Shown here piece after piece: positions 2,133-33,222 of a DNA stretch of 33,222 nucleotides. The DNA is taken from positions 1-33,222 of the IMG/VR virus record IMGVR_UViG_3300035190_000244; one strand, 5' to 3'. The DNA is from a virus. The notes under the pieces were generated by a model. The model saw only the letters and a program-made list of their open reading frames with translations. It had not been told where the DNA came from and did no database searches. The stretch's first letter is position 1, and every line of letters starts with the position of its first letter. The position numbers and the translations under genes are program-made.

Positions 2133-2319
2133 TCTTTTCTACTTCGTCACGCTTCTCTTTGGTTTCGTAGAGGCGCAGTATGTGGATACACGGGTCGTCA
2201 CCATTCTCAAACTCGTTCATCTCGTCATCTGACATTGGGATACCATCGTGGGTTGAGCAGATAGCAGGGCTAATAAACCCTTGTTCTCTACCTATTGAGA
2301 ACCATTCTTCATAATCCAT
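2110..2319 (-). CDS. Hypothetical protein with CSTHDG motif
   Basis: A 69-residue acidic protein containing ICSTHDGIPMSDDE and a second Cys in DDPCIHILRLYE. Short proteins with a Cys-x-x-His-Asp-Gly motif followed by a Cys-Ile/Val-His motif recur in actinophages without known function, as far as I recall. The conserved Cys and His could bind a metal. Its ATG overlaps the ssb stop as TAATG, which fixes the start and suggests coupled translation with SSB. Confidence 0.65.
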   Translation of the reverse strand: MDYEEWFSIGREQGFISPAICSTHDGIPMSDDEMNEFENGDDPCIHILRLYETKEKRDEVEKNVPIWRV

Positions 2320-2720
2320 TAGAACGGTTCTTCATCAGACAGGGTTGGCATTTGCTTGCCAATCATCCCGACCTGTGCCATTACCTGACTGGTCTGGTCT
2401 TTCACCCAAGCGTTCCAACGGCAAGACACACCAACTTCATCAGCCACAAGTTTCATTGACTTGCCTTTTGTGCCGTCTTTCTTGGTGAACTCGTCTTGTT
2501 CTAGGCGACCTGAGATAAGTACGGTGTCACCTTTGGCGATACTGTTTGCCACATTTTCTGCGACCTTGCCGAACACAACAACATTGTGCCAGGTGGTTTT
2601 CTTTTTGTCATCTTTACCGTAGTTATCTGCTACTGAGAATGTCAGGATTGCCATTGCGCTGGCACTGAATTTCAGTTCGGGGTCTTGCCCGACTGTTCCG
2701 TGGATTGTGATGTTGTTCAT
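2319..2720 (-). CDS. ssb: Single-stranded DNA-binding protein
   Basis: A 133-residue SSB of the bacterial OB-fold family. It opens with the typical MNNITIHGTVGQDPELKF beta strand and contains the core KKTTWHNVVVFGKVAENV and GDTVLISGRLEQDEF segments. It ends in the acidic tip DEEPF used by SSBs to recruit replication and repair partners. The length is a little shorter than bacterial SSBs because the disordered linker is brief. It coats ssDNA during phage replication and recombination and fits with the exonuclease and annealing protein at 7212-8890. A TAACAAAATG junction precedes it, with a GGAGGGGT-type ribosome site. Confidence 0.95.
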   Translation of the reverse strand: MNNITIHGTVGQDPELKFSASAMAILTFSVADNYGKDDKKKTTWHNVVVFGKVAENVANSIAKGDTVLISGRLEQDEFTKKDGTKGKSMKLVADEVGVSCRWNAWVKDQTSQVMAQVGMIGKQMPTLSDEEPF

Positions 2721-2724
2721 TTTG

Positions 2725-3378
2725 TTACCCCTCCTGGAGTGTTATAAAAGGCAAAGGTATATCTACCCCTGCATTGTTTGTTCTTCTAACCATTGATACC
2801 AACTTAGGGGTGTTTACATCAGGACCGAACGCAAGATACGTACCGTCTGTTGAGTCAATACCCCACTGTTTTGCTAATACCATACGTTTGAAAGAATTTA
2901 CTCTGCCCATATGTACCCATATAGAACGGGCTTTTGCTTCTGCACAAAAGATACGGGCAGTATTAGAAAGTTTGAAATCTGTTGTCCCACCAATAAATAA
3001 ACAACCCATTGTTTCCCACGGGGTTGTTTCCATTTTAGCACCATCTTGTAATACAAACGCTGGTTTGTATCCCAATGATGAAACCATTGTGTGATATTCA
3101 GACCATCGTTCAACCGTTTTGTCGTGGTCTGCAACTACATCTGGAACAGTTGCGAACAATGCTTTGTCTGGTGATGAATGACCTTTGAGCCATTTGAGCC
3201 AAACCTGTTCATCCCATTTTTCAGCAAAGCAACCGTTGTCTGCTGCCCATACCCACTGGTGTGGAGAACTTTTACTGTTGCGTTGGCTGAATGGTGTCAG
3301 CATCAAACCAATCCCATTGTCGTGCAATTCTTTTTGCATATCAGGATTTGAAGGCAGGCAGCCGCTTAGATAAATCAT
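2725..3378 (-). CDS. dpdA: DpdA-like 7-deazaguanine transglycosylase (DNA base exchange), short form
   Basis: A 217-residue protein related to the DpdA / tRNA-guanine transglycosylase TIM-barrel superfamily, which swaps guanine for a 7-deazaguanine base in nucleic acid. Visible signatures: WAADNGCF with a candidate nucleophile Asp47; VPDVVAD at 78-84; FVLQDG at 108-113; FIGGTTDF at 128-135; HMGRVNS at 156-162; and GIDSTDGT at 173-180 with candidate Asp175 or Asp178. It is much shorter than tRNA-guanine transglycosylases and has no visible zinc site. The open frame reaches 3504, but the MIYLSG start at 3378 matches the first beta strand and leaves a 38-base overlap with the transporter gene. 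A GGAGGA lies 19 bases upstream, which is rather far. The neighbouring YhhQ-type transporter supports the assignment. The substrate (DNA or tRNA) is inferred. Confidence 0.75.
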   Translation of the reverse strand: MIYLSGCLPSNPDMQKELHDNGIGLMLTPFSQRNSKSSPHQWVWAADNGCFAEKWDEQVWLKWLKGHSSPDKALFATVPDVVADHDKTVERWSEYHTMVSSLGYKPAFVLQDGAKMETTPWETMGCLFIGGTTDFKLSNTARIFCAEAKARSIWVHMGRVNSFKRMVLAKQWGIDSTDGTYLAFGPDVNTPKLVSMVRRTNNAGVDIPLPFITLQEG

Positions 3379-3880
3379 TTGATATCCAAATAAGTAGTCC
3401 TCCGAGCAAAGCCATTTCTGTTTTGCCAATGACTTGTCCTTGCCAATACATTGTTGAACCAAATGCAATCTGCAAAAAGATAAATGAGTCAATGAATCCA
3501 CCAATTACACCTGATGAAATGACTGCGCCGACCAATGTTTTGTCACGCAGTTTTGTGTAAACAAGGAAATCTGCTAGTTCTCCACAAGCAAATGCAATAG
3601 CACTGGCAGTGGCAACTGCTGGATTCACTGCGTAGGACAACAACACGCCAACGGCAATAGCAACAAGTGTTGCTTTGCGCCCGTAAACATTTTGTACTAT
3701 GTCACGCAAAAACATAGCGATTCCAATCATCAACACACCAGAGGGAGCGTTGTAACCAAACCCAACGGGGATGGTGTGTGGACCACCAGGAAAATACTGT
3801 GTTCCTACGTTAGAAATCATCCAGTTAGCAACGGGGATGGTTGCTAAGTACAAAATGATAAGTGGTATTTTTTTGTTCAT
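3341..3880 (-). CDS. yhhQ: Queuosine-precursor transporter, YhhQ/VUT family
   Basis: A 179-residue polytopic membrane protein with about six hydrophobic segments. Family hallmarks are FLRDIVQNVYGRKATL near residues 57-72, ASAIAFACGELADFLVYTKLR, and SSGVIGGFIDSFIFLQIAFG. YhhQ-type proteins take up preQ0, preQ1 or related 7-deazaguanine precursors. The ATG at 3880 has an AAGGAAGAAAGAGA site and overlaps the stop of the upstream small gene as ATGA; the open frame before it (to 3937) is highly charged and is unlikely to be translated. Being joined to a DpdA-like gene, it probably feeds precursor from outside the cell to base exchange. Confidence 0.9.
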   Translation of the reverse strand: MNKKIPLIILYLATIPVANWMISNVGTQYFPGGPHTIPVGFGYNAPSGVLMIGIAMFLRDIVQNVYGRKATLVAIAVGVLLSYAVNPAVATASAIAFACGELADFLVYTKLRDKTLVGAVISSGVIGGFIDSFIFLQIAFGSTMYWQGQVIGKTEMALLGGLLIWISNDLSKRLPAFKS

Positions 3881-4074
3881 TCTCTTTCTTCCTTCTTTTG
3901 TTGGAGACTTATTATTCTTCTTGCCCGTTTTTGGCAAGGGTGTTGTGGTGGTTCAGGTAACGACACAAATGTTGTTACTGTCACGCCACAGTTGGGGCAG
4001 TGCCACTCTTGTCGTAATGAAATGCCCTTCATTGGATTTAGAGTATACCCTGGGTGTGTCTTAGTCAAGCGCAT
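3877..4074 (-). CDS. Small CxxC protein between PP-loop gene and transporter
   Basis: A 65-residue protein with HCPNCG near residues 25-30 and a later HPCQ, then a basic, charged tail (KRARRIISLQQKKEERE). The CxxC plus His/Cys pattern suggests a zinc knuckle. The ATG at 4074 overlaps the end of the PP-loop gene by 14 bases; a TTG two codons earlier is a less likely start. Its stop overlaps the YhhQ start as ATGA. Its position inside the transporter cassette makes a role there possible, but no function can be assigned. Confidence 0.6.
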   Translation of the reverse strand: MRLTKTHPGYTLNPMKGISLRQEWHCPNCGVTVTTFVSLPEPPQHPCQKRARRIISLQQKKEERE

Positions 4075-4834
4075 TTTCAATAATGTCTTCTGCTACCGAA
4101 CAAAGCAAAGAACATTCAAAACTGGCTTCGGTGGCGTGGTTTCCTCTGTCTGGGTCCAGTTCGTCAAGGAACAATCTTTCTTTTTTGTTTCCGTTTCCTT
4201 TTGTAGACCTCAAAATGGACACGTCTAAGTCTCTTTCTAATTTAGCCATACGGTCAAACACTTCAGGAAAATCTTTACGGATTTTATTCCAGTACCCCAT
4301 ACCTCCCTTGGGGCAACCAATGCAGTTGTTGTTTTGATAGCCAAGTTTGTACATAGCAGGAAGTTCTATGCCTGCCCTGTCAACCATAGATAAACAGTCC
4401 TGCTTTGAAAGACCACGCTCTATCAAGGGAGTGCGAAGATTCACTTCAGGGTTTTGTTCTCTGAATCTGTCTGCACGATGCTGTTCTTCGGCTGTATAAC
4501 CAAACACTTGGATGTCTTCGTGTCGTTGAAATTTTCTGCGCAATTTCTTTTTTAGTTCTGTTGTACACATTGCCCCGTAAGGGGATACAAGGAACCGTGA
4601 TTTTTCCCACACATCCCAAGTGTCAACATATTTTTCTGATTTCAAATATGTGATTGGATGTCCAAACCATTGTTCACATTCAGCCATAAACCGTTTGTTG
4701 TCTTCGTGTTCTGAGCCTGGGTCGGTATAAGCCAGTATCAAATTGTCTGGCTTTTCAGCAATGATTAATTTTGCTGCAACTGCTGAAGCAGCACCAGCAG
4801 AGAACCATACGATTGTGCGATTTGTTGTTTCCAT
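4061..4834 (-). CDS. PP-loop (PAPS-reductase-like) ATP pyrophosphatase enzyme
   Basis: A 257-residue adenine-nucleotide alpha-hydrolase-like protein of the phosphoadenosine phosphosulfate reductase superfamily, which is common in phages. The PP-loop reads FSAGAASAVAA at residues 11-21, a variant of SGGxDS. An acidic segment DPGSEHEDN follows at 38-46. Cys90 (AMCTTELKKK), Cys171 and Cys174 (NNCIGCPKGG) resemble the Cys sets that hold an Fe-S cluster or form reactive thiols in related enzymes. The ATG at 4834 overlaps the preceding stop (TAATG) and has a GGAAAAG site; an ATG at 4852 lacks one. True sulfate assimilation is only one option. Next to DpdA and YhhQ, a nucleobase or nucleotide modification role is possible. 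Confidence 0.8.
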   Translation of the reverse strand: METTNRTIVWFSAGAASAVAAKLIIAEKPDNLILAYTDPGSEHEDNKRFMAECEQWFGHPITYLKSEKYVDTWDVWEKSRFLVSPYGAMCTTELKKKLRRKFQRHEDIQVFGYTAEEQHRADRFREQNPEVNLRTPLIERGLSKQDCLSMVDRAGIELPAMYKLGYQNNNCIGCPKGGMGYWNKIRKDFPEVFDRMAKLERDLDVSILRSTKGNGNKKERLFLDELDPDRGNHATEASFECSLLCSVAEDIIENALD

Positions 4835-5286
4835 TAGCAATTTCTTTTCCATTTTTGTACAAGTTTATGTTGTGATTGACAGATAAATCTTTGAATGGAT
4901 TTACGAGCCTTCAAGCAACCCCATCCCCACGGACCAACTCTCCATACCTTAGTACCATCTGGTTCAATGTGCGACTTGAACGCTATTGCGTCTGCCACCC
5001 TGACCTGTTCTTGTGGGGTCATACCTTTGGCTGAGGAATGATTACTCCACCTACGAAAAGTAGAACGGTGAATCCCTAATCCACCTGTGTAACTACGGGT
5101 TGAGTGGTTCCAGTTCGGTTCGTTCGTGCCAGGTAGCCCTGTCTCACAGGTTCCAAGCGAGTCGTAATAGGCATCCACTAATACACCGTGGTATTTCTTG
5201 TGGCTGTTGTCGTTTTTAGCGTGGGCTGTGGTTGGGGTGGTAGCGATTGTGGCTACCAAGATTGTGGTCAATATGATTTTGCGCAT
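4834..5286 (-). CDS. Secreted Rpf/lysozyme-like (transglycosylase) protein
   Basis: A 150-residue exported protein. It has a signal peptide (MRKIILTTILVATIATTP, likely cleavage after AHA at about residue 23). The body resembles the resuscitation-promoting-factor / small transglycosylase fold: CETG near residue 47 carrying the candidate catalytic Glu, NWNHSTRSYTGGLGIHRSTF in place of the usual YxGGLQFxxxTW, EQVRVADAI, and GPWGWGCLK at the end of the domain. Rpf-like enzymes cleave peptidoglycan glycan strands. The start has an ideal AAGGAGG site. It lies more than 4 kb from the endolysin, so a role in entry, superinfection or host wall remodelling rather than final lysis is possible. Confidence 0.75.
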   Translation of the reverse strand: MRKIILTTILVATIATTPTTAHAKNDNSHKKYHGVLVDAYYDSLGTCETGLPGTNEPNWNHSTRSYTGGLGIHRSTFRRWSNHSSAKGMTPQEQVRVADAIAFKSHIEPDGTKVWRVGPWGWGCLKARKSIQRFICQSQHKLVQKWKRNC

Positions 5287-16024: not shown

Positions 16025-17062
16025 TCATAGCCTATAGAATGTCAAGTTGGACTGAAGCCTTACATCTGTAGGGTTTAGTTCCAACGCTACAGACCCGTGG
16101 AACCAGGCTGTATCTGAATCGCCTAGATGATGGCAGGCTATAGCCATCAAGTCGTGTGGTAGCCAACCCCAGGCTTCTGCCTCGCACAGATAGTCCAACG
16201 GTTTCTCTGTGATACGCAAAGCCATCTCGCAGTTGTATCGGCAACTAAGCCAATCTGCTTTTTCATAGTGGTGTTGTGCTAGGGCTACCCACGATTCTCG
16301 TCTGCGTGGGTCTTCCCCAATGGCACGATACAGGTGGTAGTGGGCATCATCTGGTCGCATCTTGGCTATGAACCGATGTGAGGCTGCCCGTTCTGGTAGC
16401 CACGTTGATAGTTCTAGGTGACGTGTAAAATGGTATTGCGCTTCTGGGTATCTACGGTTGAAAAAGTATTCACGGGCTAAATAGAATTGGTTTCTGTCAT
16501 CCCGTGGGTCTTCTTTGACTGCCAGTTCAAGTAGGGGTAAGTATTGGGAGCGTGATTTGGTGGGGTCAGGATGATGATGTATTTCTAATCCCTGTGCCCA
16601 TTGTTGGATTTCTGTGGTTTGAGATTTGAGGACTTCGTGTACGGGGTGCTTCCATTGGTATTTGTGACGGCGATGAATTTTGTCGCCACCATAGGTAAGC
16701 CCTTCGGAACCGTCTGGGTTCCACGACCAGATGTATTTGTAACGTGGTCGGGTAGTGCCTGGCTCAAGATTTTCTAGGGCTTGTCTCCAGCCTGGTTGTA
16801 GCACTTCATCCATATCTAGGGAAATACATAAATCTATGTCTTCGGGCAGTAATGACAGGGCGTGGTTACGGGCGTGGTCAAATCGCCAGGGTGTAAAAGT
16901 CTTTTGGTGGACATCTATGCCTGCACCATAGGCTAAAGCGTAGGTGTCGTCTGTTGAACCTGTATCCAGGATTAGTAGATGGTCGGCTTCTTTGGCTGAT
17001 TCGTACCAGCGTTGAACAAATTGTTCTTCGTTGAGTGCGATGGTGTATACGGCTATTTTCAT
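16025..17062 (-). CDS. Family-2-like glycosyltransferase with helical C-terminal domain
   Basis: A 345-residue protein. Residues 1-105 carry the GT-A core: KIAVYTIALNEEQFVQRW, LILDTGSTDDT and ISLDMDE, the last holding the DxD-type metal site. Residues 150-345 are helical with repeated units (YLPLLELAVKEDPRDDRNQFYLAREYFFNRRY, YHLYRAIGEDPRRRESWVALAQHHY) that resemble TPR repeats. It starts after GAGGGGAT. Likely to glycosylate a virion protein or the host surface; its position among fibre genes favours the former. Sugar and acceptor are unknown. Confidence 0.85.
   Translation of the reverse strand: MKIAVYTIALNEEQFVQRWYESAKEADHLLILDTGSTDDTYALAYGAGIDVHQKTFTPWRFDHARNHALSLLPEDIDLCISLDMDEVLQPGWRQALENLEPGTTRPRYKYIWSWNPDGSEGLTYGGDKIHRRHKYQWKHPVHEVLKSQTTEIQQWAQGLEIHHHPDPTKSRSQYLPLLELAVKEDPRDDRNQFYLAREYFFNRRYPEAQYHFTRHLELSTWLPERAASHRFIAKMRPDDAHYHLYRAIGEDPRRRESWVALAQHHYEKADWLSCRYNCEMALRITEKPLDYLCEAEAWGWLPHDLMAIACHHLGDSDTAWFHGSVALELNPTDVRLQSNLTFYRL

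Positions 17063-19184: not shown

Positions 19185-19185
<1 letters not shown>
18124..19185 (-). CDS. Tail fibre with fibronectin-III-like and glycine-rich distal domains
   Basis: A 353-residue protein. Residues 14-112 look like a fibronectin-III domain (VTINAVTNF, TVKFQYNTTNNFSS, GTTYYVRAVISNGIG). Residues 153-345 are extremely glycine-rich, with runs of up to seven Gly separated by short polar loops, as in the glycine-rich (polyglycine II sandwich) tips of phage adhesins such as that of phage S16. The segment ends with GMCYFQYYGP. The DNA on the plus strand reads as CCACCACC-type runs at about 18260-18720. A receptor-binding role is strongly suggested. The ATG overlaps the collagen-like gene stop (TAATG). 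Confidence 0.8.
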
Positions 19186-20657
<1,472 letters not shown>

Positions 20658-20675: not shown

Positions 20676-21761
20676 CTATTGGATAGCCCCTGAGTTCAGA
20701 AGAACTTGATGCACATTTTCTGGGACAACATAGGTTTCTCCTGGTTTCAAACTATAAAACTGCGACCCGATGTGGGCGTTGACTTTACGAACCACTTGGA
20801 TGCTGGTCATAATTTCAGGTTCATACCACACTGGGTCTTCCAGAAGGTTTCCTTCTGGGATGAGGTTAAGTAGTTGTTTGGTGGCGTTAGACCAAGAAAA
20901 CGCTTTTGATTCGGGGACACGAGCCACAGCCCTATCCCTAATGGTTTGACGGTTTGAATATGCTTCCATCATCAGTTCCTCCAACACCTTCTGGTTCGGT
21001 TCATCCCACTGCCCCAAAGTCTCTGCCGTAGATTTACGACACGGAACCACCCCAAAGGCTAAATGAGCGAACTGGGACTGTCCTGTGCTGTCTGACACGA
21101 TTGTAGGAACGCCACTGGCAATAGCCTGTAAAGGCATCAAACCAAAACCTTCACCACGAGACACAGCCACAAAACAATCAGCCTGGTTGAACCACTCACG
21201 ATGCTGCTCACGAGTCATCCAATCTCTATTCAAAAACACCTTGTCACCCAAACGATTCAAAGGCACATCCTTAGCGTGAGGCGCAGCCTTGATATGCAGT
21301 TCAGTATTAGGCAACTTCAAAGCATTAAAAGCATTCACCAAAACATCCAGCCCTTTACGCCTCCATAAAGAACCACCCCCGTGGAACCGAAACACATCAG
21401 TCCGTTCAGCATCCATAGGTTTCCAAAAACTATGGTCCACCCCTAAAGGACAATAAGAAACATCATTATGAAACTGACTAAACAGTTCCACATTATGTTG
21501 GCAAGGAACAACAACCTGGTCAAAATGTTCTATCCACCTACGGAAATTGCCAGGCAAAGAATCCGTTTCCCACATAGAAAACAAAACCTTATGTTGCCCC
21601 CTGAACCAACCCTTACAAGCATTAGGGATTTGCATATGAACGTGAACAGAAGCGTGTTTGTCCAGTTTTACATTCTTAGGTAAAGACTTCTTGAACCCGT
21701 CAAGCATCGCCCCATAACCAAAGTTAGGGTCATCAAACCCTTGCCAATGTTGATAGTTCAC
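20676..21761 (-). CDS. Family-4-like glycosyltransferase with extra C-terminal domain
   Basis: A 361-residue protein. Residues 120-240 carry the GT-B C-terminal half: FRFHGGGSLWRRKGLDVLVNAF, ELHIKAAPH, and SRGEGFGLMPLQAIASGVPTI with the EGFG nucleotide-sugar motif. The first 110 residues hold a shortened N-terminal half (VLFSMWETDSLP, VVVPCQHNVELF). A further 50-residue piece at the end (SIQVVRKVNAHIGSQFYSL, YVVPENVHQVL) is beyond the standard fold. Starts at GTG in a GTGA overlap with the preceding gene. Probably modifies fibres encoded beside it. Confidence 0.85.
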   Translation of the reverse strand: MNYQHWQGFDDPNFGYGAMLDGFKKSLPKNVKLDKHASVHVHMQIPNACKGWFRGQHKVLFSMWETDSLPGNFRRWIEHFDQVVVPCQHNVELFSQFHNDVSYCPLGVDHSFWKPMDAERTDVFRFHGGGSLWRRKGLDVLVNAFNALKLPNTELHIKAAPHAKDVPLNRLGDKVFLNRDWMTREQHREWFNQADCFVAVSRGEGFGLMPLQAIASGVPTIVSDSTGQSQFAHLAFGVVPCRKSTAETLGQWDEPNQKVLEELMMEAYSNRQTIRDRAVARVPESKAFSWSNATKQLLNLIPEGNLLEDPVWYEPEIMTSIQVVRKVNAHIGSQFYSLKPGETYVVPENVHQVLLNSGAIQ

Positions 21762-27712: not shown

Positions 27713-30700
27713 TTATTGCTCCAACTCTGGTGGTAAAAATTCACTAGACAAAATACGTTCCCATAAACCCTTAAACTCAGGATACTGCGCTACAAGACCT
27801 TCACCTTTGTTAGTCAACTTTTGACGCATACCAGCAGAAGCAACAGCATTACGCCAGGCATCATTAGCCATAGCAGGATTCAACACTTTAGCCTGAGCAA
27901 CAAAATCAGTACGGAAATCCCAATACTCTTTCAACGCTTGACCAGCAGGTAAAGACACAACTTTCGGGTCTTTAACCATACGTTCAATCTGACGCTTCTG
28001 ATTGACCCATTCAACCTCGTTCAAACCAGCAGTAGCAGAAGGGTTCCACATAGGATAGAACCCTTTAAGTTCATCTGCTTTTTGTTTCATAACACTTTGA
28101 AACCCAGGATTGTTTTTTGCTTGCTCAGGAGTCAAACCTAAAGCAACGCCCTGGGCGACAAGATTATCTTTATATGTGTTGTAAACACTCCAAGCAAGAT
28201 TGTTCAAAGCAATATCTTGTTTTACAGCAGCAGGGCGTGGGCTGCGTTGCCCAAGATTGCGTTGTTGTGTGTAAACACCAGGGGAAAAAACGCCATCTTG
28301 AGGACCTAAAAATGCGCCAACCAAAGGATATTTATTTACAAGTCCACCATTAGATTTAGCCCATTCACCAAACTCTTTGGTTGGTTGAAGACCAGGGTAA
28401 CTTTCAGATGAACCAGCAAGATACACCCAAGCACTAGGTCCGTACTTATTCAAAAACTCTGCAACACCAGCACCGTATGATTTATCTGGGGTGTTCGTCA
28501 TATTGCGAAGGTCGTTCAACACTTGACCTTGCGTAACATACTCAGGTCCAAGTTTTTCGTAATACTTAGTAATAGAAGCACCAGGACTAAAAATCTTAAA
28601 CACTGATTTCCAAATCAAAAGCAAGTTAGTTTTTGTTTGTGCTTCTTCAAGAAGACTGGTACGTTCTTCATCAGTAATAGGAACATTTCCTTTTTGTGAA
28701 GCCAAGTTTGTCAACACAGCATTTAATGCTGTAGAGCGAATGACATCGTTTTGTTCACTACTAAACAATTGTTGGATATTGTCAATGCCTGGAAGTTTAT
28801 TTACTCCTGGAATTCCTTTTGCAAGTTGCGTACTTGCAACACCAAATCCTTGTGCCCAAGCAGGAAGAAAATAATCAGCCAAATCTGATTTCATTTTAGG
28901 GTCGCCAAACGGAAACAAAGCATTTCTTACAGCAGAAAAAGATTCAGTTGTTGGCAGAATTGAATCCCAAATAATTCCACCAATTCCAAACGCACCAGGA
29001 ACAGCCTGACCAAGCAAAGTTAGGTTCTTTGTAGGTATAGATTCGTTACCTTCTAGTCCTATCAATTTCATAAATTGACGACTGAACGGAACTGTCACAG
29101 CCTGTTTCCCTGTGTCTGGGTCGGTAAACAAAATGTTTTGTCCAGGCATACCACCAGCAAACTCAGGCACAGGAGTATTCTCAAGTGCTTGCTGTGCCAA
29201 ACCAGCCTTATATAAAACAGTAGGTTGTTGAGCAAGTTGACGGGTCCACACAGCCCACTGTTCTTTCCAAGCGTCAAAGAAACCAAACTGCAAAGAATGA
29301 CGATAACCAAAATAAGATTTTTTTCTAGAGTCATACAACAATTCAGTCATTTTTTGTTGACCAGCCATTTCACCAAGAAGTTCAACTTGGTTTCTGGTTG
29401 CTGTACCAGCAGCATCAGGCAAAGCGTCAACTAATCTTTCTTTCAACCATTTAGGTGCATCAGATTTATCTATTGCATCAACCATTTTTTTGGCTTCAGC
29501 AGGGTCCATAATTGGCATCATTTCAATAATGGTTTGCCACTTGTGATACTGCGTGTAAGGGTTACGAGCAAACTTTGCAGAAGCATCACGGTAAATATCA
29601 AACCCCTTAGTCATCAATTTACTTCTTTCTTCAGCAACTTTTGTTGCTTCTGTTGCGTGGAAAGGAGCAAACTCTGGTCTATCAGGATTGGTATGCAAAT
29701 TGTCTGCAACGTGCTGTCTTAGTTCAGGACTTGGTTTATAAACATCCCAAGTATTATCCAAAGAAATAGGAACACCATTTATAGTGCCAGTAGAAACGGC
29801 TTCTATAGCATCAAAGTCTTTGACTGTTCGTGTTTCAATATCTAGTATTCTGCTTTGAACCCATTTTTCAACATTGTCAATGTCTGTCCAATCCCAAGAC
29901 GCATTGCGTTTGCCAGTTGATTTGATAAATTTTTCAAGCAATGGCTGCAAATCGCCATTCAAAAAACGGTCTGCCAATTTTGCTATCTCCGTAGGACCAC
30001 CCAACATTGCTTCAGCAATAGGTGGATACTCTGGGCTTGCGTTCATTTTTACAATGTCTTGACCTGTCGCATCAATCCATTTGGCTGGTTCATCAGTGGC
30101 AGATGCGTGTTGGGTAAGGTTTGAACGCTCATAATGCAAAACACGAGGGTCTGTGCGTTCGTCAGCCATAAGCCCTTCAACATTTTCTGCGACGGTACGA
30201 TTAGACCCAGGAAGTACAGTATTGATGCGCTGGTTGAACACGTCAATTTGAGATTGTATTTCGGCTTTTGTACCGTACTCGTCTACAATCTTGTCAATGT
30301 AGCCCTGGTATTTACCTGCTGTTTTAATGTCTCCTGCTGCCAAAGCAGCAGATACTTTTGCTTGCAAAAAATCAAGTTCGTCAATCAACGGAACCATTTT
30401 GGTTATTTCTTTTGCAGTACGTATAGCAACACCGTGAGTTGTGTAATTGACGTGACCAAATGTTCCAAGCATATGCAAAGATTCTGGAGACAAATTGCCT
30501 GTAACAGCAACACGCAAAAGTTCATCTGGAACAATTCTTGTAGCCATACGAATAGGTAAAGGTGCACCCAAAGCAAGTGGTTTCAAAACCCTGCCTTGAA
30601 TTTTATCAAGTTGTTTAATCAACTTAGGACTTAACAATGTTTCAACAACAGCATTACCACGAATGGGCTTAAACGCTTCCCACAAATTAGTTGTCTCACG

Positions 30701-33222
30701 AATAACTTGCTTCAACATATCAGGATGAAGCATAAGGAACCCTTGATTCAAGCCGTCAATAGTTCTAAAGATTTCTGTTGAACCATCCTCTAACCACGGT
30801 GCAGGATAAGACCTTCCAATTGCATCCATAGACCATTTATGAATACCATCAGACCAGCCCGACCATTTGGTAACAGCATCTATCCATTCTTCTGGGGCAC
30901 CTACTTTACGCAAGGAAGGACCAACCATAGTTCTCATCCATTGGTTTGCCAAATCAAAACGTGCGCCAGCACCTTCTTTAGTTACTGCACGAATAGCCTC
31001 AGCAAGCATCAAATGACGGTCAGCAGTAGGTACCTTCATAACAATCATCAGATTGTTCATATCTTTGATAGAAGCCATAGGGTCATCAAAAGCAAAGAAT
31101 GTAGAACCAGGCATAGTTGCAAACTGTCGTGTCTTGCCTGAAACCTTATTGGCTATCATTGCGCCTGTTTGATTAATCCATTGGCTTTGCATACCAGGAA
31201 CATTAAAAGTGAAATACATTGGGTCGGCACTCAAAACACCGTCAACCATAACTTTATGGACAGCGTTCAAATCTGGTGTAGCACCAGTTAGACGTGCAGC
31301 ATCAACAATGTCTTGTATGGCTTGGGCAGCACCAATAGGAATGTTGCCAAGAAACGCATCGTAAAGTTGACCGACATTATCAAATGAAGCAAGTTTAGAA
31401 AGAGCAGCCCGACCTGCTCTTGTGTGAGGCATAGCCTGAATAGCCATAGCGTTTATTCGTATACCCCCACTAGGGGTGATTACTATTCCCAGTGCTTCCA
31501 CAATAGCATCAATCACAGTATTCTTCATACTGGCTAGAATTGGAGGGTAAGAGTCCATTGCTTCCAGCACGTTTCTATTGATAATAGAATCTGCTTCTTG
31601 TTGAGCGTATGCTTGAACTTCTGGAGGAAGCACAGTTCCTTTAGGTAAATAACCACCAAAATCAGACAAGTTTTCTACAGGTACGTTTTCTGCACCCCTT
31701 ATCCAAGAACTTGTAGAAACATCATAAATTGGTTCGTCAACATATGGAATTATTGTTGACAGTCCAACAGATTCACGTTTGGTTTTCCAAGCATCCCGTA
31801 CAATATCTGCTACTGCATTAGTAAAGATGAGTTTAGTGGTCTGAATGTCAGTACCAAATTCTCTTGACAATGTTCTATACATTTCATCAATTGGCTCTGT
31901 AATGGCAGTAACTTTTTCTGATTGAGCAACACCACCATAACCTTCAATTGCCAAACGCTCGGCAGCAAGTTTGGCACCTACAGTTTCAGCAGCAGCACCT
32001 TCCAAAAGTTGTGTTGTTCCAGTACGCCCAAGATTCAACCCTTTCATAATTCCCCGAACAGGGTCAAAATACATTGACGGGTCAGTACCTAAATCAAAAG
32101 TTAAGTCAACTAAGCCAGACAAAAATTGTGCAGCATACCCATTACGGTCAATCAATCCAGCCTGAATAAAAGGTTCTTGAACTGAACGACCAGCAGACCA
32201 AGTTTTTCCTGCAATTTTTGGTAAACCAGCATCGTGTTGCCTACGTGCTTCTTCCATTGTTGGACCTTCAGGGAAAAATCCTGCGCCTAAATCAAGATTT
32301 TTATTTGGGTCTAAACCACGTTTGATGATTTGGGTAATGATGTTTCCTTGAATAACTGTTTTGTAATAGTTATCTAAATCTCCACCTTCGGGGTCACGTG
32401 CGCCCCATAAATAGTTAGCCCATTGAAGTGGACCTACACCAGGGGTTTGTTGTGTTGACAAAGCAAATTCAATGTTTGAACCAGTAAATTGCGCTGCACC
32501 AGTAAGTGCTGTCGTAGCAGTTTTACTTGCAGCCCTAAGACCTGTACCTATTTGTGTTAGGTCTAGTCGCAATGGAATGTTTACTCCACCAGCCTCTACT
32601 CCACCAGCAGGACCAACGTGGTCTGGTGTCATCATCCCAATAGTTTTAAACGGCAAAGAAGCAACCCATCCTAAAGGGGAAAGTTCGTCTTTGAACGCCA
32701 TAAGGTCACGCATAAAACCAGTTGGTTCTGAAGCGTTTATCATTGCAGCGTTTTGTGTTTCCATTGCATTTGTAAGTTTTGCAAACGTAGGGAATTTTTT
32801 ATCAATCAAACTTTTATGACCAGCAGGGAATTTAGGGTCAGCAATGACTGGTCCTTCTTCATTGTCTACGTTTCCACCTCTGACTAATTCACCTTTTTTA
32901 TTTACTAAAACCATTGTTGGTCTGAACTTTTCAGTCAATGCAGCATACTGTTCAGGTTTTTGCATATAAAACTTAATAAGTTGAGGCTCAGTAAGATTCA
33001 ATAAATCATCAGGTGTTTTGATTTCTGGAATAGACAGATTTCTCCAGTTGACACCTTGCTCGTTTGTAGGGTCTACAACTTCCCACCATTTAGGTTTATG
33101 CCCAGGCATAACCATAAAATCTTCTGGTTTCATTTTGAGAATATCAAGCAATGTTTTGCCTTCGGTGCCGTCACGATGAACTCGGTAACTACCGTGGCTT
33201 CCACCAGCAGGAGAAGGAACAA
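27713..33222 (-). CDS. Giant virion protein, partial at the window edge
   Basis: At least 1835 residues; the frame is open to the right edge with no stop, so the true start is beyond 33222. The TTG at 33151 and ATG at 33133 are internal possibilities, but the residues before them (SPAGGSHGSYRVHRDGTEG) look like coding sequence. The protein is helical with Ala- and Gly-rich stretches, for example LDLTQIGTGLRAASKTATT, AADSIINRNVLEAMDSYP-type helices, and LGLTPEQAKNNPGFQSVM at the end. No catalytic motif is visible in this part. Size and position before the M15-type peptidase fit an ejected internal virion protein of a short-tailed phage. Enzyme domains may lie in the missing N-terminus. Confidence 0.75.
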   Translation of the reverse strand, partial: VPSPAGGSHGSYRVHRDGTEGKTLLDILKMKPEDFMVMPGHKPKWWEVVDPTNEQGVNWRNLSIPEIKTPDDLLNLTEPQLIKFYMQKPEQYAALTEKFRPTMVLVNKKGELVRGGNVDNEEGPVIADPKFPAGHKSLIDKKFPTFAKLTNAMETQNAAMINASEPTGFMRDLMAFKDELSPLGWVASLPFKTIGMMTPDHVGPAGGVEAGGVNIPLRLDLTQIGTGLRAASKTATTALTGAAQFTGSNIEFALSTQQTPGVGPLQWANYLWGARDPEGGDLDNYYKTVIQGNIITQIIKRGLDPNKNLDLGAGFFPEGPTMEEARRQHDAGLPKIAGKTWSAGRSVQEPFIQAGLIDRNGYAAQFLSGLVDLTFDLGTDPSMYFDPVRGIMKGLNLGRTGTTQLLEGAAAETVGAKLAAERLAIEGYGGVAQSEKVTAITEPIDEMYRTLSREFGTDIQTTKLIFTNAVADIVRDAWKTKRESVGLSTIIPYVDEPIYDVSTSSWIRGAENVPVENLSDFGGYLPKGTVLPPEVQAYAQQEADSIINRNVLEAMDSYPPILASMKNTVIDAIVEALGIVITPSGGIRINAMAIQAMPHTRAGRAALSKLASFDNVGQLYDAFLGNIPIGAAQAIQDIVDAARLTGATPDLNAVHKVMVDGVLSADPMYFTFNVPGMQSQWINQTGAMIANKVSGKTRQFATMPGSTFFAFDDPMASIKDMNNLMIVMKVPTADRHLMLAEAIRAVTKEGAGARFDLANQWMRTMVGPSLRKVGAPEEWIDAVTKWSGWSDGIHKWSMDAIGRSYPAPWLEDGSTEIFRTIDGLNQGFLMLHPDMLKQVIRETTNLWEAFKPIRGNAVVETLLSPKLIKQLDKIQGRVLKPLALGAPLPIRMATRIVPDELLRVAVTGNLSPESLHMLGTFGHVNYTTHGVAIRTAKEITKMVPLIDELDFLQAKVSAALAAGDIKTAGKYQGYIDKIVDEYGTKAEIQSQIDVFNQRINTVLPGSNRTVAENVEGLMADERTDPRVLHYERSNLTQHASATDEPAKWIDATGQDIVKMNASPEYPPIAEAMLGGPTEIAKLADRFLNGDLQPLLEKFIKSTGKRNASWDWTDIDNVEKWVQSRILDIETRTVKDFDAIEAVSTGTINGVPISLDNTWDVYKPSPELRQHVADNLHTNPDRPEFAPFHATEATKVAEERSKLMTKGFDIYRDASAKFARNPYTQYHKWQTIIEMMPIMDPAEAKKMVDAIDKSDAPKWLKERLVDALPDAAGTATRNQVELLGEMAGQQKMTELLYDSRKKSYFGYRHSLQFGFFDAWKEQWAVWTRQLAQQPTVLYKAGLAQQALENTPVPEFAGGMPGQNILFTDPDTGKQAVTVPFSRQFMKLIGLEGNESIPTKNLTLLGQAVPGAFGIGGIIWDSILPTTESFSAVRNALFPFGDPKMKSDLADYFLPAWAQGFGVASTQLAKGIPGVNKLPGIDNIQQLFSSEQNDVIRSTALNAVLTNLASQKGNVPITDEERTSLLEEAQTKTNLLLIWKSVFKIFSPGASITKYYEKLGPEYVTQGQVLNDLRNMTNTPDKSYGAGVAEFLNKYGPSAWVYLAGSSESYPGLQPTKEFGEWAKSNGGLVNKYPLVGAFLGPQDGVFSPGVYTQQRNLGQRSPRPAAVKQDIALNNLAWSVYNTYKDNLVAQGVALGLTPEQAKNNPGFQSVMKQKADELKGFYPMWNPSATAGLNEVEWVNQKRQIERMVKDPKVVSLPAGQALKEYWDFRTDFVAQAKVLNPAMANDAWRNAVASAGMRQKLTNKGEGLVAQYPEFKGLWERILSSEFLPPELEQ

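Follow-up and report, generated by a model that had tools for sequence, protein, structure and literature searches.

A gene for a PP-loop enzyme lies beside the genes of a 7-deazaguanine module, the transporter YhhQ and the transglycosylase DpdA, in a 33,222-base viral record from IMG/VR (hereafter the window, meaning the whole stretch of DNA that was analysed), and we asked what this enzyme does there. The window is probably from an actinophage because it carries a WhiB gene. A first-pass annotation had proposed that the enzyme and a small CxxC protein, both inserted in the transporter operon, may complete a hypermodification pathway on the imported base.

Gene order and insertions in the window

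The gene block lies on the minus strand and consists, in that order, of ORF4834 (4834..5286), a resident gene with an N-terminal signal-like stretch; the PP-loop gene (4061..4834); the gene of a 65-aa zinc-ribbon-like C-x2-C...H-x-C protein (CxxC; 3877..4074); the YhhQ-like queuosine-precursor (preQ0) transporter (3341..3880); the DpdA-like transglycosylase (phrog_15826; 2725..3375); and the resident single-stranded DNA-binding protein, ssb (2319..2720). The PP-loop reading frame at 4061-4852 (263 aa) has two possible ATGs, at 4852 and at 4834, the second of which shares bases with the upstream stop (TAATG) and yields a product of 257 aa. The last 14 nt of the PP-loop gene are also the first 14 nt of the CxxC gene, and the CxxC TGA overlaps the YhhQ ATG (ATGA, 3877-3880); the genes, their starts and both couplings lie where the first-pass annotation had placed them. 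Elsewhere, the window encodes two glycosyltransferases (16025-17062 and 20676-21761; a GT2 with a TPR-like part and a GT4-conflict type), a collagen-like Gly-x-Thr repeat protein that is perhaps part of a tail fibre (19185-20315) and one 1812-aa frame spanning 5.4 kb (27713-33151).

Relatives were collected for each of the four genes, PP-loop, CxxC, DpdA and YhhQ (80, 10, 79 and 28 loci). Three of the relatives match the window over the three blocks flanking the inserts with DNA identities of 95-97% (L083, L084) and 91-98% (L085), and their alignment runs from 5600 to 4843, jumps to 4035-3873 and jumps again to 2726-2313; they therefore represent ORF4834-CxxC-ssb without either insert. Insertion A (4036..4842) is missing in all three, L083 having 16 bp in its place, and insertion B, which contains YhhQ-DpdA (2727..3872), is missing in these and in L089 and L090. 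When compared with L089 and L090, which retain the long CxxC N-terminus, insertion A shrinks to about 4079-4836, that is, to the PP-loop gene alone. Furthermore, each insert occurs without the other: L003 reads ORF4834-PP-CxxC-ssb and lacks YhhQ-DpdA, and L096/L175 reads ORF4834-CxxC-YhhQ-DpdA-ssb with no PP-loop gene at that position. The PP-loop gene and YhhQ-DpdA are two separate insertions flanking the CxxC gene, which reverses the earlier picture of genes inserted in a transporter operon, as CxxC is the resident. The GC contents of the inserts (0.42 and 0.43) are below those of ssb (0.48) and ORF4834 (0.47).

The site between ORF4834 and CxxC (slot A) contains different single genes in different relatives. 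The window and L003 have a PP-loop gene of the window's type (PP-I), L202 has a second PP-loop type (PP-II), and L086, L087 and L231-L234 have a DNA methyltransferase, which about 300 bp separate from CxxC in L231-L234; the slot is empty in L083-L085, L089, L090 and L096. The L087 methyltransferase matches phrog_67 and PADLOC MTase_II and, like the window PP-I gene, carries an additional in-frame ATG a few codons downstream of the first, behind a common MEK.LL start. YhhQ-DpdA occupies slot B, and a third slot, following ssb, holds PP-II in L083, L084, L096 and L203. The methyltransferase swap is evidence of a common cargo slot, not of a common function. In L086 (4909-6014) the methyltransferase is divided over two overlapping frames, so this copy may be broken or misassembled.

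The CxxC gene follows ssb, which is present in nine of the ten loci retrieved by CxxC; the tenth, L086, ends just past CxxC. DpdA was found solely in the two of these loci that come from the window's own phage, and YhhQ-DpdA in none of the eight others. Relatives of CxxC in loci retrieved by DpdA or YhhQ (L096, L098/L134, L181-L183) likewise adjoin ssb, except in L096, where YhhQ-DpdA intervenes as in the window. The invariant residues W24, C26, C29, P43, H45, C47 and L57 (11/11 aligned) look like a small zinc site. According to the first-pass annotation the link to DpdA/YhhQ would be accidental for genes that occur mostly without them in related phages; this is the pattern of CxxC and, for the most part, that of the PP-loop gene. 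We rejected CxxC as a member of a hypermodification pathway because the gene tracks ssb.

Association of PP-loop genes with DpdA

The YhhQ protein scored 50.7 bits against Vut_1 (PF02592; cut-off 27.2) and 40.4 bits against TIGR00697, under the cut-off of 50.95. The homologues of DpdA are annotated DpdA-like, and its fold matches the tRNA-guanine transglycosylase structure (TGT) 3bl3 at Z 14.3 (rmsd 3.2, 199 aligned), a score that pyruvate kinases reach or surpass (Z up to 15.6); the fold match alone cannot tell DpdA from other TIM barrels. In 68 of the 79 DpdA loci (L091-L169), YhhQ is the neighbour of DpdA, on its strand and no more than 700 bases away; 48 of these loci have one gene order and 20 the other. 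Such adjacency for this type of DpdA is unlike the situation in Hutinet 2019, passages of which describe YhhQ as uncorrelated with any phage group.

Strong matches to phrog_424, the family of the PP-loop protein, occur in 8 of the 77 DpdA contigs from outside the window's phage; of eight isolate phages, three have them. The controls gave 0/71 contigs with a methyltransferase (71 of 80 fetched) and 1/29 random contigs; Fisher's test gave p 0.006 for 8/77 against the combined 1/100 and p 0.23, no significant enrichment, against the random contigs alone; both values are optimistic because near-copies were kept among the DpdA contigs. Weak or short matches (G045, G056, G076, W01, W05) were excluded from these counts. 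In the reverse direction, DpdA is present in 3 of 50 PP-I contigs (50 of 78 outside the window's phage), compared with 0/50 methyltransferase and 0/29 random contigs. Among 14 contigs with both genes (11 found via DpdA and 3 via the PP-loop gene, the window phage's own contigs excluded), nine have them at most 2.5 kb apart on one strand against 1.8 expected at random, a null that is naive because phage accessory genes, whatever their kind, tend to lie in clusters. The terminase of L017 was tried as a control, and was unusable with just three loci. The two genes are thus commoner together than in the controls, yet mostly found apart, since 69/77 DpdA contigs lack a strong phrog_424 match and 47/50 PP-I contigs lack DpdA.

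These numbers bear on the proposal that the PP-loop enzyme acts on the 7-deazaguanine base, for example by sulfur or amide chemistry on the nitrile of preQ0, before or after its insertion by DpdA. The enrichment and the short distances favour it, as do L017, which reads PP-YhhQ-DpdA with an ATGA overlap, and fold matches that include QueC, the PP-loop enzyme making preQ0. However, the genes were inserted separately in the window, and Vibrio phage vB_VhaP_VH-5, the source of the PptA protein described below, has no DpdA of the window's type. Furthermore, the PP-loop proteins linked to DpdA belong to several unrelated subfamilies, including PP-I, PP-II, NinC-like (by loop sequence) and DndC/BrxP-like proteins, that of ReqiPine5 lacking Cys90, and on the tree the linkage to DpdA must have changed 7 to 12 times. 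An accumulation of modification genes fits such repeated linkage better than one fixed pathway. It is possible that the PP-loop enzyme and DpdA have a common substrate; as a required step of the base pathway the enzyme is not supported, and we regard action on the base as unlikely, although the enrichment beside DpdA makes 'accidental' too strong a word for the link.

Differing PAPS-reductase-like genes lie near DpdA in three isolated phages, which are cultivable test cases: Rhodococcus phage ReqiPine5 (L312:1950-4111) and Arthrobacter phage Aoka (L313:155-3103), both also with a YhhQ-like membrane protein, and Erythrobacter phage R6L (L317:2453-4958).

Family, residues and fold of the PP-loop protein

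The window protein matches phrog_424 at 4e-58, and a profile of 42 PP-I sequences found one real relative in the PDB, PptA, which is chain C of entry 21fy (E 6e-99). Used as a single query, the window protein matches this chain over residues 5-251 (phmmer 3.3e-74, 252.7 bits), Cys53, 90, 147, 171, 174, 241 and 245 being common to both; on this sequence evidence it is a member of the PptA family. Over 237 residues, PptA has exactly the sequence of a VH-5 gene product (QGH73774.1), and VH-5 PptA groups within the PP-I clade of the window (SH-aLRT 97). The E. coli IscS sequence, used as a query, has an exact counterpart in two entries, and 21fy is one of them; the phage homologue has therefore been solved in an entry with a host cysteine desulfurase. 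We found no publication on PptA in the open-access literature searched, and our guess is that 'Ppt' means phage phosphorothioation. Adjoining pptA in VH-5 there is no recognisable partner gene. Neighbours were clustered for 77 of the 80 PP-I loci, the other three having no gene call; a 115-aa protein, in 25 loci, and an HNH protein, in 23, came out as the most frequent families. A dedicated partner gene was rejected, as representatives of both families match no chain of 21fy.

Alignment of the window protein with 41 of the 80 PP-I loci, after removal of near-identical copies, incomplete loci and reference sequences interrupted by stops, revealed that S12, G14, A15, S17, Cys90, Cys147, Cys171, Cys174, Cys241 and Cys245 are invariant in 42/42 sequences. 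The 257-aa translation bears out the SAGAAS loop (residues 12-17) and the Cys90, Cys171 and Cys174 of the first-pass annotation; their invariance indicates that these three cysteines are not there by chance, and Cys147, Cys241 and Cys245 are three more. The C-terminal acidic-Cys-x3-Cys motif is found in 42/42 PP-I and 15/15 PP-II sequences. The loop itself is degenerate (SxGAxS; SGGxDS in 0/42), so ATP hydrolysis is not assured. The gene is under purifying selection (dN 0.105, dS 2.40, window against L003).

Based on the presence of PptA and IscS in one entry, the phage protein might block the host desulfurase and starve an IscS-Dnd phosphorothioation defence or other sulfur pathways. A single-gene cargo without a partner, in a slot shared with a gene of anti-restriction type, would suit such a counter-defence; however, a blocker need not retain a PP-loop, Cys90, Cys147, Cys171, Cys174 and a C-terminal cysteine pair, all invariant and suggestive of catalysis, and we consider this reading rather unlikely.

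The best defence-library match is to SspD (PADLOC PDLC02782; E 1e-18, 66.1 bits, residues 6-203 of the 263-aa ORF, a model without a curated cut-off). The DndC profile gave no match at E 0.1, and DndC membership was rejected; SspA/B/C and Dnd partners are absent among the eight window proteins scanned with PADLOC. The structure model has a pLDDT of 83.8, and its tail (237-257), with pLDDT below 50, would suit a swinging sulfur arm. In the fold search, the best match was PAPS reductase 7rge (Z 13.1, rmsd 3.7, 170 aligned), followed by other PP-loop families at Z 10-11 that include the [4Fe-4S] enzymes LarE, TtuA (10.4) and NcsA (10.3); 21fy is missing from the Foldseek list simply because the library behind it ends in April 2026. 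Fold alone cannot choose the function, because PAPS reductases, LarE, TtuA, NcsA and GMP synthetases all share it; residue conservation discriminates more.

IscS supplies sulfur for tRNA thiolation, and this background, together with the fold matches to TtuA and NcsA, raises the question of whether the enzyme thiolates tRNA in the manner of TtuA, NcsA or TtcA and keeps translation going in infection. The Pfam scan showed no RNA-binding domain, the window has no tRNA genes, a DNA methyltransferase occupies the slot in relatives and the nearest defence family is SspD, all of which make this role distinctly unlikely. ECGxH is the C-terminal catalytic motif of APS/PAPS reductase (CysH). An auxiliary CysH reducing PAPS for cysteine synthesis is very improbable and was rejected: despite the 7rge match, the PHROG name and the habitual 'cysH' label of viral genes in parts of the literature (PMC8319345), this motif is absent from 42/42 PP-I and 15/15 PP-II sequences, PAPS_reduct scores 21.4 bits against a cut-off of 22.5, no cysH model matches at E 0.1, and the relative PptA shares an entry with IscS.

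Proposed function and comparison with known systems

We propose that the window gene encodes a one-gene sulfur transferase of the PptA family, fed by host IscS and carried as cargo in an ssb-centred DNA-modification island beside an independent 7-deazaguanine module, a reading to which we give about an even chance. The enzyme would dock on the host cysteine desulfurase, and its flexible Cys241-x3-Cys245 arm would accept the persulfide sulfur. Conservation and fold suggest that Cys90, Cys171 and Cys174 bind a [4Fe-4S] cluster by the PP-loop. ATP would activate the substrate, and the sulfur would pass onto phage nucleic acid, most likely DNA, possibly as phosphorothioate. Two genes downstream, YhhQ-DpdA, to judge from the families, would import preQ0 and exchange it for guanine as a separate module. 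The two would be parallel layers of protection, presumably under pressure from restriction, rather than steps in one pathway.

The sulfur-transferase reading best explains the homology to PptA in an entry with IscS, the SspD match, the six invariant cysteines, the flexible tail, the [4Fe-4S] fold matches, the slot exchange, the purifying selection and the lack of a recognisable partner in VH-5. Against it, IscS also feeds tRNA thiolation, the PP-loop is degenerate, and Ssp/Dnd partners are absent among the eight window proteins scanned. The earlier suggestion of a thiolation-type Fe-S enzyme is supported in so far as the protein looks like a sulfur-transferring PP-loop enzyme with three cysteines, the cluster itself being predicted. 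The arrangement suggests that such phages stack swappable chemical disguises on their DNA.

More tentatively, and with doubt outweighing confidence, we extend this to a phage one-gene DNA thiolation module that needs host IscS alone, is interchangeable in its slot with a DNA methyltransferase and is stacked with an independent 7-deazaguanine module; many viral 'cysH' genes, perhaps NinC among them, would then belong to a sulfur-transfer superfamily and not to sulfate assimilation. According to PMC8319345, viral PAPS-reductase-like genes are frequently listed among sulfur auxiliary metabolic genes and taken as sulfate assimilation, a reading that would be wrong for many of them if the family marks nucleic acid with IscS sulfur. 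Phages would also possess a minimal way of marking DNA with sulfur. The methyltransferase slot exchange provides a natural comparison set.

Among known systems, the phage DpdA/YhhQ 7-deazaguanine module is represented by an adjacent pair, as in the related loci, and it may not need the PP-loop gene. SspD is the ATP pyrophosphatase of SspABCD DNA phosphorothioation, and PMC7188994 describes it in a complex with the cysteine desulfurase SspA, as a possible acceptor of the sulfur that SspA provides; the window protein resembles it by profile, whereas its gene is a one-gene cargo without SspA/B/C matches among the scanned genes. The [4Fe-4S] thiotransferases TtuA, NcsA and LarE are among its fold matches, and its three invariant cysteines are candidate ligands for a cluster of that kind. 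PptA of VH-5 is alike over its full length, in its conserved cysteines, in its clade and in lacking a recognisable partner; it differs in that its gene follows one for a phage RNA polymerase instead of adjoining ssb, and in that its phage has no DpdA of this type.

NinC of phage lambda (Orf290; L360:1082-1954, equal to NC_001416 41081-41953), an orphan of the nin region, matches phrog_424 at 1e-89 and has an SspD-like score of 1.8e-14. Passages of PMC10695390 give ninC as non-essential. A lambda interaction map and an interaction paper on Giles contributed nothing further. It differs from the window protein in an SGGRTS loop and a distant sequence. Lambda DNA is not known to carry thiolation, which cautions against extending a DNA target to the whole phrog_424 family. 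NinC and other phrog_424 proteins keep the CT..K motif, the CxxC and the C-terminal Cx3C (CSESC in NinC). NinC has equivalents of window Cys90, Cys171 and Cys174, and this old orphan would become testable if the proposal is true.
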